Assembly: GCA_025642075.2 (NCBI GenBank)
Contig: JAODUO010001221.1
Span: 62,001-126,000 of the forward strand
From: Ridgeia piscesae
Lineage: Eukaryota; Annelida; Polychaeta; Sabellida; Siboglinidae
Reading direction: 5' to 3'
Length of the DNA stretch: 64,000 bases
The position numbers were made by a program, and so were the translations under genes. Positions 11,231 through 61,700 of the stretch are shown here, piece by piece. Positions within the stretch are counted from its first letter, which is position 1; each line of letters starts with the position of its first letter. The notes below the pieces were generated by a model, which had not been told where the DNA came from, ran no database searches, and saw nothing but the letters and a program-made list of their open reading frames with translations.

Positions 11231-14200
11231 TTAAAAGGCCTGACTCCCAGACGCCACTGCTGCTGCCCTCTGTTGTTGGCGCTGTGCAGCATACTGCTGT
11301 TGTTTCTGTCTCTGCACGGCCTCGTCGTATGATTTCACTGTCACTGTGTCTCGCGGTCCAGTTGTCCACACCGCAGCGTCCTCGTCCACTACGGCTGCCT
11401 CCACGGCCACCTGGTGGACACCAGTGACGGGGAAGGCGAGCAGAAACTGCGTGCTGAAATAGTCGTTGTGTGGCTCCACCTGCTGGCTCATGTTGTTCGT
11501 TGGATTCTCGTGAGGCTACAACATGAGGATGATAACAGCTGATTGATTACAGTGACTTCCCTGCAAAATATCAATAACTGACAAAACCAGTTTTGGAGAT
11601 GTCATGGCACGATGTGTGTAAGTTCTTCACAGAAATGATAACATTTATTGAAGCTCTCGCAAGACTTATCAATCCAGACGACTCATCAGATCTTACTCAA
11701 ACAGATACTCCAATGTCTTGGAACTAATAAATAATAATATATTTCTATAATCTCTGCTGAATGTTCTGACGTCTCACAGGACACACTACTAAGTCCATAA
11801 TGACGGTTGTGTAAGTCTGTACTAAAACCAATTAATGTACCAAGGCATGTCAACAATAGTAAATTTGTCATAAGATTCGTGTCAACATGACTTACTTTTC
11901 AATAAGGCTCATGCCAATATGACCTACCTTGACAAAAAGACTCACATCAGCATGACCTACCATGTCATAAAACTATCATGTCAGCATGATCTACCTTGTC
12001 ATAAGGCTGTCATGTCAGCATGACCTACCTTGTCATAAGACTGTCATGTCAGCACAACCTACCTTGTCATAAGGCTGTCATGTCAGCATGACCTACCTTG
12101 TCATAAGACTGTCATGTCAGCATGACCTACCTTGTCATAAGGCTGTCATGTCAGCATGACCTACCTTGTCATAAGACTGTCATGTCAGCACAACCTACCT
12201 TGTCATAAGGCTGTCATGTCAGCATGACCTACCTTGTCATAAGGCTGTCATGTCAGCATGACCTACCTTGTCATAAGGCTGCCATGTCAGCATGACCTAC
12301 CTTGCCATAAGGCTGCCATATCAGCATGACCTACCTTGTCATAAGGCTGTCATGTCAGCACAACCTACCTTGCCATAAGGCTGTCATATCAGCATGACCT
12401 ACCTTGTCATAAGGCTGTCATGTCAGCATGACCTACCTTGTCATAAGGCTGCCATGTCAGCATGACCTACCTTGCCATAAGGCTGTCATGTCAGCATGCA
12501 CCTATCTTGTCATAAGGCTGCCATGTCAGCACAACCTACCTTGCCATAAGGCTGCCATGTCAGCATGACCTACCTTGTCATAAGGCTGTCATGTCAGCAT
12601 GACCTACCTTGCCATAAGGCTGCCATGTCAGCATGACCTACCTTGTCATAAGGCTGACATGTCAGCACAACCTACCTTGCCATAAGGCTGCCATGTCAGC
12701 ATGACCTACCTTGTCATAAGGCTGCCATGTCAGCATGACCTACATTGACACAAGGCTGCTATGTCAGCATGACCTACCTTGCCACAAGGTTGCCATGTCA
12801 GCATGACCTACCTTGTCATAAGGCTGTCATGTCAGCACAACCTACCTTGTCATAAGGCTGACATGTCAGCACAACCTACCTTGTCATAAGGCTGCCATGT
12901 CAGCATGACCTACATTGCCACAAGGCTGCCATGTCAGCATGACCTACATTGACACAAGGCTGCTATGTCAGCATGACCTACCTTGCCACAAGGTTGCCAT
13001 GTCAGCAAGACCTACCTTGTCATAAGGCTGTCATGTCAGCACAACCTACCTTGTCATAAGGCTGACATGTCAGCACAACCTACCTTGTCATAAGGCTGCC
13101 ATGTCAGCATGACCTACATTGCCACAAGGCTGTCATATCTGCATGACATACCTTGTCATAAGGCTGTCATGTCAGCACAACCTACCTTGTCATAAGGCTG
13201 CCATGTCGGCATGACCTACCTTGCCATAAGGCTGCCATGTCAGCATGACCTACCTTGCCATAAGGCTGTCATGTCAGCATGACCTACCTTGCCATAAGGA
13301 TGTCATGTCAGCATGACCTACCTTGCCATAAGGCTGCCATGTCAGCATGACCTACCTTGCCATAAGGCTGCCATGTCAGCATGACCTACCTTGTCATAAG
13401 GCTGCCATGTCAGCATGACCTACCTTGCCATAAGGCTGCCATGTCAGCATGACCTACCTTCCCATCCACAGAGACCATCTGTGTGCGACTCTGTTGCTCG
13501 GTGTTCACCGTCAGCTGCACCCTCTTGATGCTGCGATACAACCCCGGCCGCACCCCATGTTGTATCACCCCCTCCACCTTGAGGGTGAGGAAGGTGTCAT
13601 GTGATATAGAGATGGGTTCGTTGGCTGACTTCTGCTGTGGTGAGATGGCCAGCTGCACCAACAACAACACAATGACTGTAGTGTGTCAACAGCAGACAAC
13701 AACAAACAACACAATGACTGTAGTGTGTCAACAGCAGACAACAACAAACAACACAATGACTGTAGTGTGTCAACAGCAGACAACAACAAACAACACAATG
13801 ACTGTAGTGTGTCAACAGCAGACAACAACAAACAACACAATGACTGTAGTGTGTCAACAGCAGACAACAACAAACAACACAATGACTGTAGTGTGTCAAC
13901 AGCAGACAACAACAAACAACACAATGACTGTAGTGTGTCAACAGCAGACAACAACAAACAACACAATGACTGTAGTGTGTCAACAGCAGACAACAACAAA
14001 CAACACAATGACTGTAGTGTGTCAACAGCAGACAACAACAAACAACACAATGACTGTAGTGTGTCAACAGCAGACAACAACAAACAACACAATGACTGTA
14101 GTGTGTCAACAGCAGACGACGATCAACAAATAAGAATCAGAAGTCTGACTACATTCGGCAGTTTCAGCCGACAACATGCATCGTTACATTAAACAGAATT

Positions 14201-58700: not shown

Positions 58701-61700
58701 CACCCACCCAGATGAGACCACCCACCCAGATGAGACCACCCACCCAGTACTGCTGCATGCAGTCTCGACAGCAGAAGCGTGTCTGCCAAGGATTCTCCTT
58801 CATCACGTGGAACCCAACCAACTCTGTCTGGTACGGCTGCTGGCAGTTGACACACAGTGGGCGGCCCTCGGCATCCACAGCCTGAAGAACAGTCGACTCA
58901 CGATGACAATCTCCTGCTAACTGGACAAGTCTACATGTGACATGTTCTAACGAAATGAGTCGTATGTCACAAAATAAAAAATGAGTTAGTCATATCATTG
59001 GAAAGAAGATATATTAAACTTTCCAATGGTGTAAAAGTCATGGACCTATATCACACATAGCCAAAGTTATTGGACGCTGAACATGCCTGGAGTAGATAAT
59101 TTCAATTGGAGAAAATCATACGATCGAGTACATAGTCGTTCCAGAATCTGGTGTTTTGCTTCTATTACTCCATTTGATGCTTTCAAAATAAACTCCCAAG
59201 TCAAGTTCGTTGTCAAAGTTATATCATGCTGTTTAATGAAATTATGTTTTCTAGCACCAACCCAATCGATCATGTTGTTTACAGTTAGCGAGTACACATT
59301 GCCCTCATAGCTCTATGCTAATCTGGGGTCCACTATCTGTTCGGCCCCGTATCCAGTGACGTTCGTTTACAGATAGGCTTCTTGCATAAATGATGCTATT
59401 GGCCAAAGTTGATGTCAGAGGGGATTCCTGCTACAAGAATCTGAAAGAAGGCATTCTGAGCTTTCCCATAGTACCAAATATGTCTGCCATGCGTTGAGGG
59501 AAATCCCGAAGAATGTGACTCGAACAAGTGCAATTTATCGGTTCTGTTTTACGAAATTCATGTGTGAAATGTTACGTAGTGTTTGTAAAATGGCTATAAT
59601 AATATACATGTGTATATGAGAAATAAGCATTGTCAATTAACAGAAAGGATATCAAAGTATACCTTTTTGACAAAAAGTCAAAATCGCCAGTAATCATTGT
59701 TGCACGTTAACACTGTGTTTTCTCGAAATCAAGTTTGCTGACATATGACTCATGTCGTTAGAACATGTCACAAATGAAACAGGAAATGTCCAACAAGAAA
59801 CACATGCTTCAGACTGGAAGTGAGGACAGTGTTAATGGAAAAGCAAAATAAGAATTATGTTGCTACAAACCGCTGTTACAATATTATTATACTACTATAA
59901 CAATTCTGGTACAACCACAAACTATCATAACCAAGACAACTGCAACAAGTTTGGTGTAACCACATGCATTGTAATGACAATGTACAGTAACCAGTTGTCT
60001 GTAATTCTGTGACTACATACATGTAATAAGTCTGGTGTAATTACGTGCATTGTAATAATAAACACCACAGACACCTATAATCAGTCCACTACAACCACAC
60101 TCTGTGTAACCAGTCTAGTGAAACGATAACTCACTGAATGCAACAATCCAAAGCAATTTTTCCCACCTGAAGAATGCCTTTCATCTTGTCAATAACATTC
60201 TCATTGCCATTCTGTACATCTTTCTTCCTGGCTGCCCTCGTCAACGCGACCAAGATGTCTCTATCCTCCGGCCAAGTCTGTCCTGTCCTGTCACGAGTAG
60301 ACTTGGCTGATCCCGGTGACTGGTGCTTCATTCTGCCAACAGATGTCGCTGTCATGCTTCGACTGATGATCCTCACCGATCCACCGACTTCATCTGCCTT
60401 GCTCAGTGTGACAGTGGCGACATCTGCCTGCAACAACAAGACGTACACTTGCTTACTGCAACAGCAAATGACAACATCTGTCAACAACAGCAAATGATAA
60501 CATCTGTCAACAACAGCAAATGACAACATATGTCAACAGCAAATGATAACATCTGTCAACAACAGCAAATGATAATATCTGTCAACAACAGCAAATGATA
60601 ACATCTGTCAACAACAGCAAATTATAACATCTGTCTACAACAGTAACTTTGGTGATGACCATTCAGTCATTTATTGAAGTGTCCAGGCAACTAGCTTCAT
60701 GTTTAAAAGTAAACAAAGCCACATGGCAAAAATGGTTGCGTCTTATTATAAACGTTGGCTGCCTTCAAAATCTATAAAAGTCATGGCCAATTAGTTTTGC
60801 TCCAACGTTGCCATATTCATGGCCTGTGGTAAAGTCACTTATAATCTGGCTGGTCCTATTTTGATAAGTCATATGCAATATAAAATATAACCAATTTTTT
60901 TAGTTACATAGCATTGGACTAGTTAACCATTCTGACCAAACGTATATTTATGACGCATGATACGAGTGCTTGCAGCATGTCCACAAAGTCATAAAGACAT
61001 GGATGAACCAAGTTTGTTGTAACTTTTCTGTTCCTTGTTTCTTAACACAGAAAGTTTTGAATATCTTAAAAGATAACTGAATTCCACGCAAGGTGCTAAA
61101 TATTCTAATAAACGGGAGAAACATAACATCCTCTGTCCTTGTCTGCAAATACTGGGTCAGTCAATATGTTCACAGAGCGAACAAAAAATTCATATATATA
61201 TAAAACCACTTGAACTATCTATTGCATAACATAATATCGAATCCAGTGACTCAAGTTTGTCAAGAATTATGTGATGATACTGCCTCTTGCAAACAACGTG
61301 TAACTTACCTTTGTCATATACCGTTGCTTTGAAGCCGTACGGCCAGATTTGAGTCCATCATACAAGAGGCACGGATTGAGAAATATTTCGCCACTCTTCG
61401 CAATCAACCGCCGTTTATTTACTGCCAAGCTGTAAGATCATATAAAAATGATTATTATTCCTTTTTAAACCAAATTGCAATATACTCAACTCAAACACTG
61501 GCTTTAGGAAGAATACCACAATCACACAAGCAGAATCAGCCAACCAATATATTTTAAAACCATTCACACCCTTCCAAAACTGTTGAGTGTTTCCTCGATT
61601 GCCATGGTTATCGCAACACTGTGAAGAAGTATCACAGAAGGCGTGACCAATCACACCAGCAAGCCCAACCAATCAGACCTTGCTAATTACAAAAACAGGC

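Follow-up and report, generated by a model that had tools for sequence, protein, structure and literature searches.

Minisatellites at splice junctions of the vestimentiferan tubeworm Ridgeia piscesae, probably of the mirage kind

Tandem arrays whose repeat unit spans an exon–intron boundary have been described in amphioxus as mirages, in Adh3, the globins BflGb6 and BflGb9, TnC and PGBD5; they lie at donors or acceptors, many with AG/GT copies, and are proposed as a route of intron gain (PMC3087553, PMC3902484). That both donor and acceptor boundaries are affected is stated in the legend to Figure 6 of the former (PMC3087553), unit lengths are 10–72 bp in Adh3 and 150–160 bp in the globins, and the BflGb6 mirage is recorded with 6 and 3 units in two haplotypes. 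A related idea is the Rogers model, in which a new intron arises when a segment bearing an AG|GT proto-splice site is duplicated in tandem (cited in PMC3087553). Within the literature found, mirages are described only in amphioxus and in a handful of genes; a paper on earthworm metallothionein describes repeats in introns that are not junction copies (PMC12783039).

Here, we analysed a 64-kb window (the whole stretch of DNA under study) of the R. piscesae genome, in which a sequence-only reading had reported nine arrays at or near splice junctions of two adjacent genes. The identity of INTS7 is secure (PDB 7cun_G, E = 9e-210); its best-matching homologues are just 50% identical, with Branchiostoma absent among the best 120 of 1,046. 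Amphioxus is rejected as host: mitochondrial cytochrome b is 100% identical to that of R. piscesae, an annelid, which settles the matter, and the mitochondrial gene order COX3-ND6-CYTB-ATP6-ND5-ND4L-ND4 and ND3-ND2-COX1-COX2 (all but COX1 and CYTB identified by eye) is annelid-like. For the exon 19 donor we took 13458, ranked second, since the top-ranked position would remove residues retained in human INTS7. The second gene, which we take to be ZRANB3 from its resemblance to that protein, the earlier naming and a SNF2-family match, has its upstream part beyond the window, elsewhere on this contig (L036, with SNF2 exon matches at C1221:136352-137269). Tandem Repeats Finder (TRF) recovered all nine arrays with the periods first reported. 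They are listed with the two genes below, where a minisatellite has a period of 15 nt or more and offsets give the TRF array end relative to the junction, negative values lying inside the exon.

11234..44338 (outer limits approximate), minus strand: INTS7, 20 coding exons, from the PDB match, exon model and homologues
11880..13460, minus strand: 34-nt array, about 47 copies, exon 19 donor (exon ends 13458), offset -3
13659..14117, minus strand: 42-nt array, 11 copies, exon 19 acceptor (exon starts 13652), 6 nt short of the acceptor (+6)
18804..18983, minus strand: 36-nt array, 5 copies, exon 13 donor (exon ends 18985), offset +1
19139..21497, minus strand: 35-nt array, about 66 copies, exon 13 acceptor (exon starts 19143), reached through degenerate copies
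23265..32234, minus strand: 42-nt array, 214 copies (9 kb), exon 11 acceptor (exon starts 23297), offset -33
32941..35983, minus strand: 43-nt array, about 71 copies, exon 9 donor (exon ends 35982), offset -2
55735..62480 (limits approximate), minus strand: ZRANB3, 3' part
57748..58148, minus strand: 20-nt array, 20 copies, 12 nt before a ZRANB3 acceptor (exon starts 57735)
58621..58747, minus strand: 18-nt array, 7 copies, repeating TGG|GTGGGT, ZRANB3 donor (exon ends 58744), offset -3
60459..60643, minus strand: 26-nt array, 7 copies, 3 or 31 nt upstream of a ZRANB3 acceptor (boundary ambiguous)

The 20-exon model places the INTS7 arrays at the donors of exons 9, 13 and 19 and the acceptors of exons 11, 13 and 19, in agreement with the earlier assignment, and the 20-nt array does lie just upstream of another ZRANB3 acceptor. 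Five of the six INTS7 minisatellites end within 10 nt of a junction, against 1.34 expected (P = 6.8e-5), 1.0 of that expectation coming from the 42-nt array, which occupies almost all of intron 10. In this test, the boundaries at introns 6/7, 13/14, 15/16 and 19/20 are those unlike the exon-model script's top pick or weakly supported, and a seventh array, at 14272-14371 and with a 12-nt period, was excluded as a simple repeat; it lies 106 nt from a junction. The sixth minisatellite, at the exon 13 acceptor, has its main TRF row at +55 and reaches the exon through a second row, 19139-19319 (73% matches), which enters it by about 4 nt. The claim that the arrays sit at or near exon boundaries largely holds, ZRANB3 having three such arrays in the window, for one of which (26 nt) the acceptor is ambiguous. 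The window's five other arrays (7521, 51370, 51608, 51938 and 55059) fall outside both modelled genes.

We compared array units with exon edges at 19 junctions, here and in stretches outside the window, by k-mer matching of the exon-terminal stretch to the array against 100 shuffles. At eight of these, the unit spans the boundary and contains exon sequence: INTS7 exon 11 in the window, and seven junctions outside it, namely ZRANB3 in L036, together with L024, L028, L027, L019 (two) and L018. The unit in these eight cases is the junction itself, combining intron sequence with 8 to about 33 nt of exon, with the additional copies on the intron side and the junction beside the exon intact. At exon 11, the unit takes in the acceptor together with some 33 nt of the exon; 25 of 28 exon nucleotides are present, above all 100 shuffles and the only such case in the window, and exon 11 is the likely source of the stretch because it encodes residues that align with human INTS7. 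A fixed-lag self-comparison missed the exon copies at L028 and L018 because of indels. The other eight window arrays, and those at L022, L026 and L029, showed no exon copy beyond shuffles. In the arrays at exon 9, the exon 13 acceptor, the exon 19 donor (a weak exon match of 7/8 nt, within the shuffle range) and the ZRANB3 donor, the repeated boundary sequence is limited to the splice consensus, and those at the exon 19 acceptor and the 20-nt and 26-nt ZRANB3 arrays likewise stay within their 100 shuffles. The original statement that most units contain a copy of the boundary was thus too strong: exon sequence is demonstrably copied in one of nine window arrays and consensus alone in four.

These abutting arrays bear on a different reading, in which arrays born within introns grow outward until selection halts them at the exon, so that edges coincide with no seeding at the junction. 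Five of the nine window arrays touch an exon edge with which they share at most the splice consensus (the four just named and the exon 13 donor), the exon 19 acceptor array halts 6 nt before its exon, and intron 10 is almost wholly filled, all as an exon barrier would have it. Such growth leaves units carrying 8 to 33 nt of exon unexplained, however, and some donor arrays end well before the far end of their intron, 564 nt short at exon 9 and 364 nt at exon 19. Tandem arrays also normally displace their neighbours rather than overwrite them, and on balance we consider this explanation rather unlikely.

Beyond the window, six junction-spanning arrays (at least 8 nt of exon), chosen by eye before the k-mer check, were found among 51 exon matches in an independent sample of SNF2-family genes, against 0.91 expected (P = 0.0004), in support of arrays at junctions other than those of the first locus. 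With the array in L036, the spanning arrays outside the window, whose units measure 27-52 nt, are as follows.

L024 and L028: spanning donor arrays, CHD4-like
L027: spanning donor array, SNF2-family, CHD1L the best match by a small margin
L019: two spanning acceptor arrays, ERCC6-like
L018: spanning acceptor array, helicase-like, probably BTAF1/Mot1
L036: spanning acceptor array, ZRANB3

Array ends lay within 20 nt of 11 of the 102 SNF2 exon-match edges, against 4.0 expected (P = 0.003); within 10 nt the count was 5 of 102 against 3.4 (P = 0.25, not significant), a result that is weak at tighter windows partly because HMM match ends differ from exact exon ends. Strong donor motifs (score 8 or more) occurred in 12 of 62 units outside the window. 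Segments outside arrays gave 3.5 and dinucleotide shuffles 5.1, and none of the 300 draws in either comparison was as high; the excess over dinucleotide shuffles was weaker at scores 6 and 9, where 17 and 10 of 300 draws were as high. The remaining 50 of the 62 units lack a strong donor motif, and a crude model found no enrichment of acceptor-like motifs (33 of 76 units against 28.0, with 40 of 300 draws as high).

Could the coincidence of arrays and exon edges simply reflect a minisatellite-rich genome? In the SNF2 stretches, minisatellites cover 50,153 of 200,000 bases, and in four other stretches 16,734 of 40,000, so that junction seeding is not demonstrated for most arrays at this cover of 25-42%, and most of those outside the window have no tie to a known junction. 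Chance alone would put an array end within 20 nt of about four of the 102 edges, and the five seen within 10 nt are not above the chance level. Against this stand the spanning units (6 against 0.9), the 11 edges, the INTS7 arrays and the donor-motif excess, and chance placement appears improbable. Arrays abut or span splice junctions above the expectation for random placement, and they do so beyond the original locus too, although in a genome this full of minisatellites junctions appear to be favoured rather than usual sites.

In most arrays examined, the copies are homogenised and retain their splice dinucleotides. GT or AG is kept in 397 of 401 walked copies of four INTS7 arrays: GT in 45 of 47 at the exon 19 donor and 71 of 72 at the exon 9 donor, AG in 67 of 68 at the exon 13 acceptor and 214 of 214 at the exon 11 acceptor, counts that include, in several arrays, a final 'copy' that is a poor remainder. 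The exon 13 donor array has lost GT from four of its five copies, the first alone having it. Over twelve arrays, 234 of 551 predicted decoy sites match or exceed the score of the real site (not every copy was scored, because sites were located by pattern), including 26 of 32 at exon 19, 20 of 21 at L024 and 22 of 24 at L019; the real site's score is reached by 0 of 69 at exon 9 and only 35 of 211 at exon 11.

Retention on this scale, with so many decoys equal to the real site, would suit arrays kept because their donor or acceptor copies are useful, for example as U1 snRNP platforms against premature polyadenylation in long introns or as recursive-splicing sites. Recent homogenisation alone yields the same outcome, however, and the GT losses at exon 13, the low-scoring decoys of exons 9 and 11 and the majority of outside units without a strong donor motif all run counter to a maintained function, which we consider very improbable.

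The copies also speak to the quality of the data. Frame-breaking indels in the mitochondrial contig mean that base quality is imperfect, and a few INTS7 exon boundaries were placed by eye, both of which would favour misassembled arrays or miscalled boundaries. Conservation of the protein, together with phase, nonetheless pins the array-bearing INTS7 junctions, the copies within an array come in many variants (for example, 31 among 214 and 26 among 68), and unrelated genes show the same pattern, leaving an artefact exceedingly improbable.

The units were said to be unrelated to one another, and this mostly holds: among 75 units (one duplicate dropped), only two neighbouring pairs have 13-mers in common, whereas at shorter lengths sharing exceeds mononucleotide shuffles (34 pairs against at most 16 for 10-mers; 12 against at most 7 for 11-mers). 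Dispersal of one repeat family is accordingly unsupported at 13 nt or more, despite that excess. Hairpin-prone units were also considered and found no support, ten units folded as DNA giving z-scores of -1.22 to +1.66, and the window contains no known RNA family at gathering thresholds.

Taken together, the arrays are probably splice-junction minisatellites of the mirage kind, in a vestimentiferan tubeworm. We propose that this lineage makes short tandem duplications at a high rate (units in the sample measure 16-93 nt) and that, where one falls across a junction, the original junction would stay beside the exon; if the exon-proximal copy is used, the mRNA would therefore be unchanged and selection blind to the duplication. 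Unequal exchange or gene conversion may then expand and homogenise the intronic copies, lengthening the intron, while the exon's own copy would be held by selection. With exon and array then drifting apart, an array that once spanned a junction would in time pass for one that only abuts it. The count at junctions exceeds that of uniform seeding three- to six-fold, which suggests that mutation or retention is additionally biased there.

Like mirages, the Ridgeia arrays include units that span the boundary with exon sequence (8 of 19 junctions), affect both ends of introns (spanning donors at L024, L027 and L028; spanning acceptors at exon 11, L019 (two), L018 and L036) and vary in unit length by locus (18-43 nt in the window). 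The amphioxus splice-junction minisatellites mentioned in the sequence-only reading are indeed mirages, and the class of element proposed there is not new, having already been described in amphioxus (PMC3087553, PMC3902484). The arrays differ in being far longer, with up to 214 copies over 9 kb, and in host, an annelid rather than a cephalochordate, which is a matter of range and not a defining feature. Junction-copying arrays occur in seven gene loci, many others merely abutting a junction. Mirages are further characterised by normal splicing despite the copies, length polymorphism between haplotypes and somatic instability; the Ridgeia arrays were analysed in genome sequence. The Rogers model shares a duplicated segment holding splice signals; there, the duplication flanks a new intron position, whereas the Ridgeia array enlarges an intron beside an intact junction. 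Ordinary intronic minisatellites or VNTRs are similar in unit length, homogenised copies and largely locus-specific units, unlike which the Ridgeia arrays are in excess at junctions and copy coding sequence in their units.

The annelid host is the most interesting part of this result. Arrays of this kind in an annelid, reaching 214 copies and affecting conserved genes unrelated to one another, suggest that they are a recurrent outcome of animal genome evolution and no peculiarity of amphioxus. At such junctions, gene predictors and assemblies from short reads would be likely to fail. The junctions also offer a clean test of splicing, one genuine site being set against tens to hundreds of near-equal copies that differ mainly in position. 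The arrays are also a concrete route of intron growth; R. piscesae has the longest average intron among four tubeworms compared, according to one report (PMC9921365). More tentatively, and with considerable doubt, splice junctions in vestimentiferan tubeworms may be hot spots at which minisatellites arise throughout the genome, perhaps because damage or repair is linked to transcription and splicing. If so, about one exon edge in ten would bear an array, intron growth would come for the most part from copies of the introns' own junctions, and the spliceosome, faced with as many as hundreds of near-equal copies, would reliably choose the site nearest the exon.

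INTS7, a minus-strand gene that we modelled with 20 exons, carries six minisatellites of period at least 15 in its introns, which, together with two of ZRANB3, the sequence-only reading had placed at or within a few bases of exon boundaries. The window itself corresponds to positions 62001-126000 of contig C1221. With each of the six randomly placed inside its own intron, 1.34 arrays would be expected within 10 nt of a junction, 1.0 of this being due to one array that nearly fills its intron, while 5 were observed (n = 6, P = 6.8e-5); a period-12 array 106 nt from a junction was excluded from this test. 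The sixth array, at the exon 13 acceptor, reaches its junction through degenerate copies, reported as a second TRF row. The proposed position was thus borne out for five of the six INTS7 arrays, with degenerate copies completing the sixth, and three ZRANB3 arrays likewise lie near junctions inside the window. A further ZRANB3 acceptor array, with a 27-nt unit in ~30 copies, was found outside the window in the adjoining 10 kb of the contig (L036), which also holds additional arrays without a called junction and a 15-nt array that begins ~16 nt past a donor without copying it.

Beyond this locus, a search of the genome (628,048,202 bases, 4,875 contigs) yielded 60 SNF2-domain exon matches, 51 of them in the twenty 10-kb stretches used here (L011-L030), which were selected independently of repeats; the other nine matches were left out. 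Compared with random re-placement of arrays that spared exons, array ends were in excess within 20 nt (11 of 102 exon-match edges against 4.0 expected, P = 0.003), 35 nt (13 against 4.9, P = 0.0015) and 60 nt (14 against 6.3, P = 0.0015) of these edges; no significant excess was seen within 10 nt (5 against 3.4, P = 0.25) or 0 nt (5 against 2.8, P = 0.14), so that the anticipated enrichment holds in this sample at 20-60 nt but not at 10 nt. Arrays spanning an exon-match edge by 8 nt on each side numbered six, against 0.91 under uniform seeding (P = 0.0004; P = 0.0014 with 5 nt on each side). These six, picked by eye and confirmed by the exon-copy test described below, lie in two CHD4-like genes (L024, L028), an SNF2-family gene for which CHD1L is the best match by a small margin (L027), an ERCC6-like gene (L019, two arrays) and a gene best matched by an entry named helicase-like protein (L018), which we take to be BTAF1/Mot1.

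Independently of annotation, a donor motif score of at least 8 was reached by 12 of the 62 array units outside the window, compared with 3.5 for non-array segments and 5.1 for dinucleotide shuffles (0/300 draws as high for either control). The excess over dinucleotide shuffles was weaker at scores of 6 and 9 (17/300 and 10/300 draws as high), and acceptor motifs showed no enrichment in array units. The arrays of the two CHD4-like genes occupy a homologous donor (L024:2372-3685 and L028:4468-6244, gene minus strand) and differ in their intron parts, with 52-nt and 41-nt units; either one junction was struck twice or the arrays are old.

At 19 junctions, stretches of six lengths taken from the exon end were matched to the adjacent array, with 100 shuffles apiece as the control. 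At 8 of the 19 the exon copy outscored every shuffle for at least two of the lengths, showing that junction-copying arrays are a real class.

Exon copies above all shuffles, and decoys (array copies of a splice site) scoring at least as high as the genuine site, in twelve arrays
INTS7 exon 11: exon copy 25/28 nt; decoys 35/211
ZRANB3 in L036: exon copy 8/8 and 11/12 nt; decoys 5/22
L024: exon copy 23/24 nt; decoys 20/21
L028: exon copy 23/24 nt; decoys 13/26
L027: exon copy 24/24 nt; decoys 13/36
L019, two junctions: exon copies 24/24 nt, and 8/8 with 10/12 nt; decoys 22/24 and 34/40
L018: exon copy 16/20 nt; decoys 0/1
INTS7 exon 9: decoys 0/69
INTS7 exon 13 acceptor: decoys 60/63
INTS7 exon 19 donor: decoys 26/32
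ZRANB3 donor: decoys 6/6

The shuffled maximum was not surpassed at any of the six lengths at the other 11 junctions, namely INTS7 exon 9, both sides of exons 13 and 19, the three ZRANB3 arrays in the window, and L022, L026 and L029; a tie with it was seen at two of them, the ZRANB3 26-nt array and L029. Because of this outcome, the claim that most units contain their boundary is too strong for the window, where exon 11 alone of nine arrays demonstrably copies exon sequence.

Most of the arrays examined are homogenised. Four INTS7 arrays retain the splice dinucleotide in 71/72, 214/214, 67/68 and 45/47 walked copies (397 of 401 pooled, genuine sites included), and the exon 13 donor array in just 1 of 5. 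By a simple score, 234 of 551 decoys equal or exceed the genuine site; they are the majority in six arrays and half in L028, and the mean decoy score lies about 1 unit or less from the genuine site in exon 9, L027, exon 11, L036 and L018. At exon 11 the genuine exon differs from the copies at three or four positions, as expected if selection holds the exon while the array homogenises separately. Its acceptor unit of 42 nt equals 14 codons, with an open frame that extends 145 codons upstream of the exon (window:23107-23733); were a nearby upstream copy used, the protein would therefore gain 14-residue repeats rather than be truncated.

Units are largely locus-specific, although not wholly unrelated as had been proposed, since they have more 10- and 11-mers in common than mononucleotide shuffles do. 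The INTS7 43-nt (window:32941-35983) and ZRANB3 18-nt (window:58621-58747) units have a common 12-mer, in opposite orientation relative to their genes. Other open frames were also observed:
window:22669-22872, minus strand, recurring open frame
window:39588-39755, minus strand, recurring open frame
window:63047-63196, minus strand, recurring open frame
window:52028-52597, plus strand, 190-codon open frame
The first three, similar around a stretch of 12 residues, are probably an interspersed repeat; the fourth presumably resembles sphingosine-1-phosphate phosphatase.

Arrays occupy 18,354 of 64,000 bases in the window (15 arrays), 50,153 of 200,000 (25%) in the twenty SNF2 stretches (69 arrays) and 16,734 of 40,000 (42%) in four other stretches (L032-L035; 10 arrays), and shares of 25% and 42% seem very high for an animal genome. 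Cytochrome b, compared over 268 residues, is 100% identical to that of Ridgeia piscesae; identity is 99% for Oasisia alvinae and 96% for Tevnia jerichonana. By these figures the host is a vestimentiferan tubeworm, R. piscesae or a very close relative. The mitochondrial contig (L031; 15,640 bases) has a gene order that we take to be annelid-like, its genes being mostly recognised by eye; ATP6 and ND5 are separated by a long simple repeat (L031:3100-3450), and coding genes contain frame-breaking indels.

A 2002 report on Adh reportedly described junction arrays. In line with the mention of the amphioxus Adh locus in the sequence-only reading, a paper on such arrays in amphioxus globin genes gives Adh3 as an earlier case (PMC3087553), and another describes one in PGBD5 and cites TnC (PMC3902484). 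In the open-licence literature we found no case outside amphioxus, in tubeworms or other annelids. TRF was run for the R. piscesae genome paper, in whose main text 'minisatellite' is absent (PMC9921365), and the main text of a siboglinid genome paper contains neither 'tandem repeat' nor any word starting 'satellite' (PMC10192322). The arrays described here are thus real examples of an element type already known, apparently unreported for annelids; they differ in their host, a vestimentiferan tubeworm rather than amphioxus, and are larger in scale than the cases described in the literature found.

The most likely origin is a tandem duplication across a junction, which would leave an intact junction still beside the exon. 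Splicing at the exon-proximal site would then yield an unaltered mRNA, so that selection would not remove the duplication, and the intronic copies would expand and homogenise, giving a longer intron. Splice junctions may be either a special birth place for minisatellites or a tolerated one.
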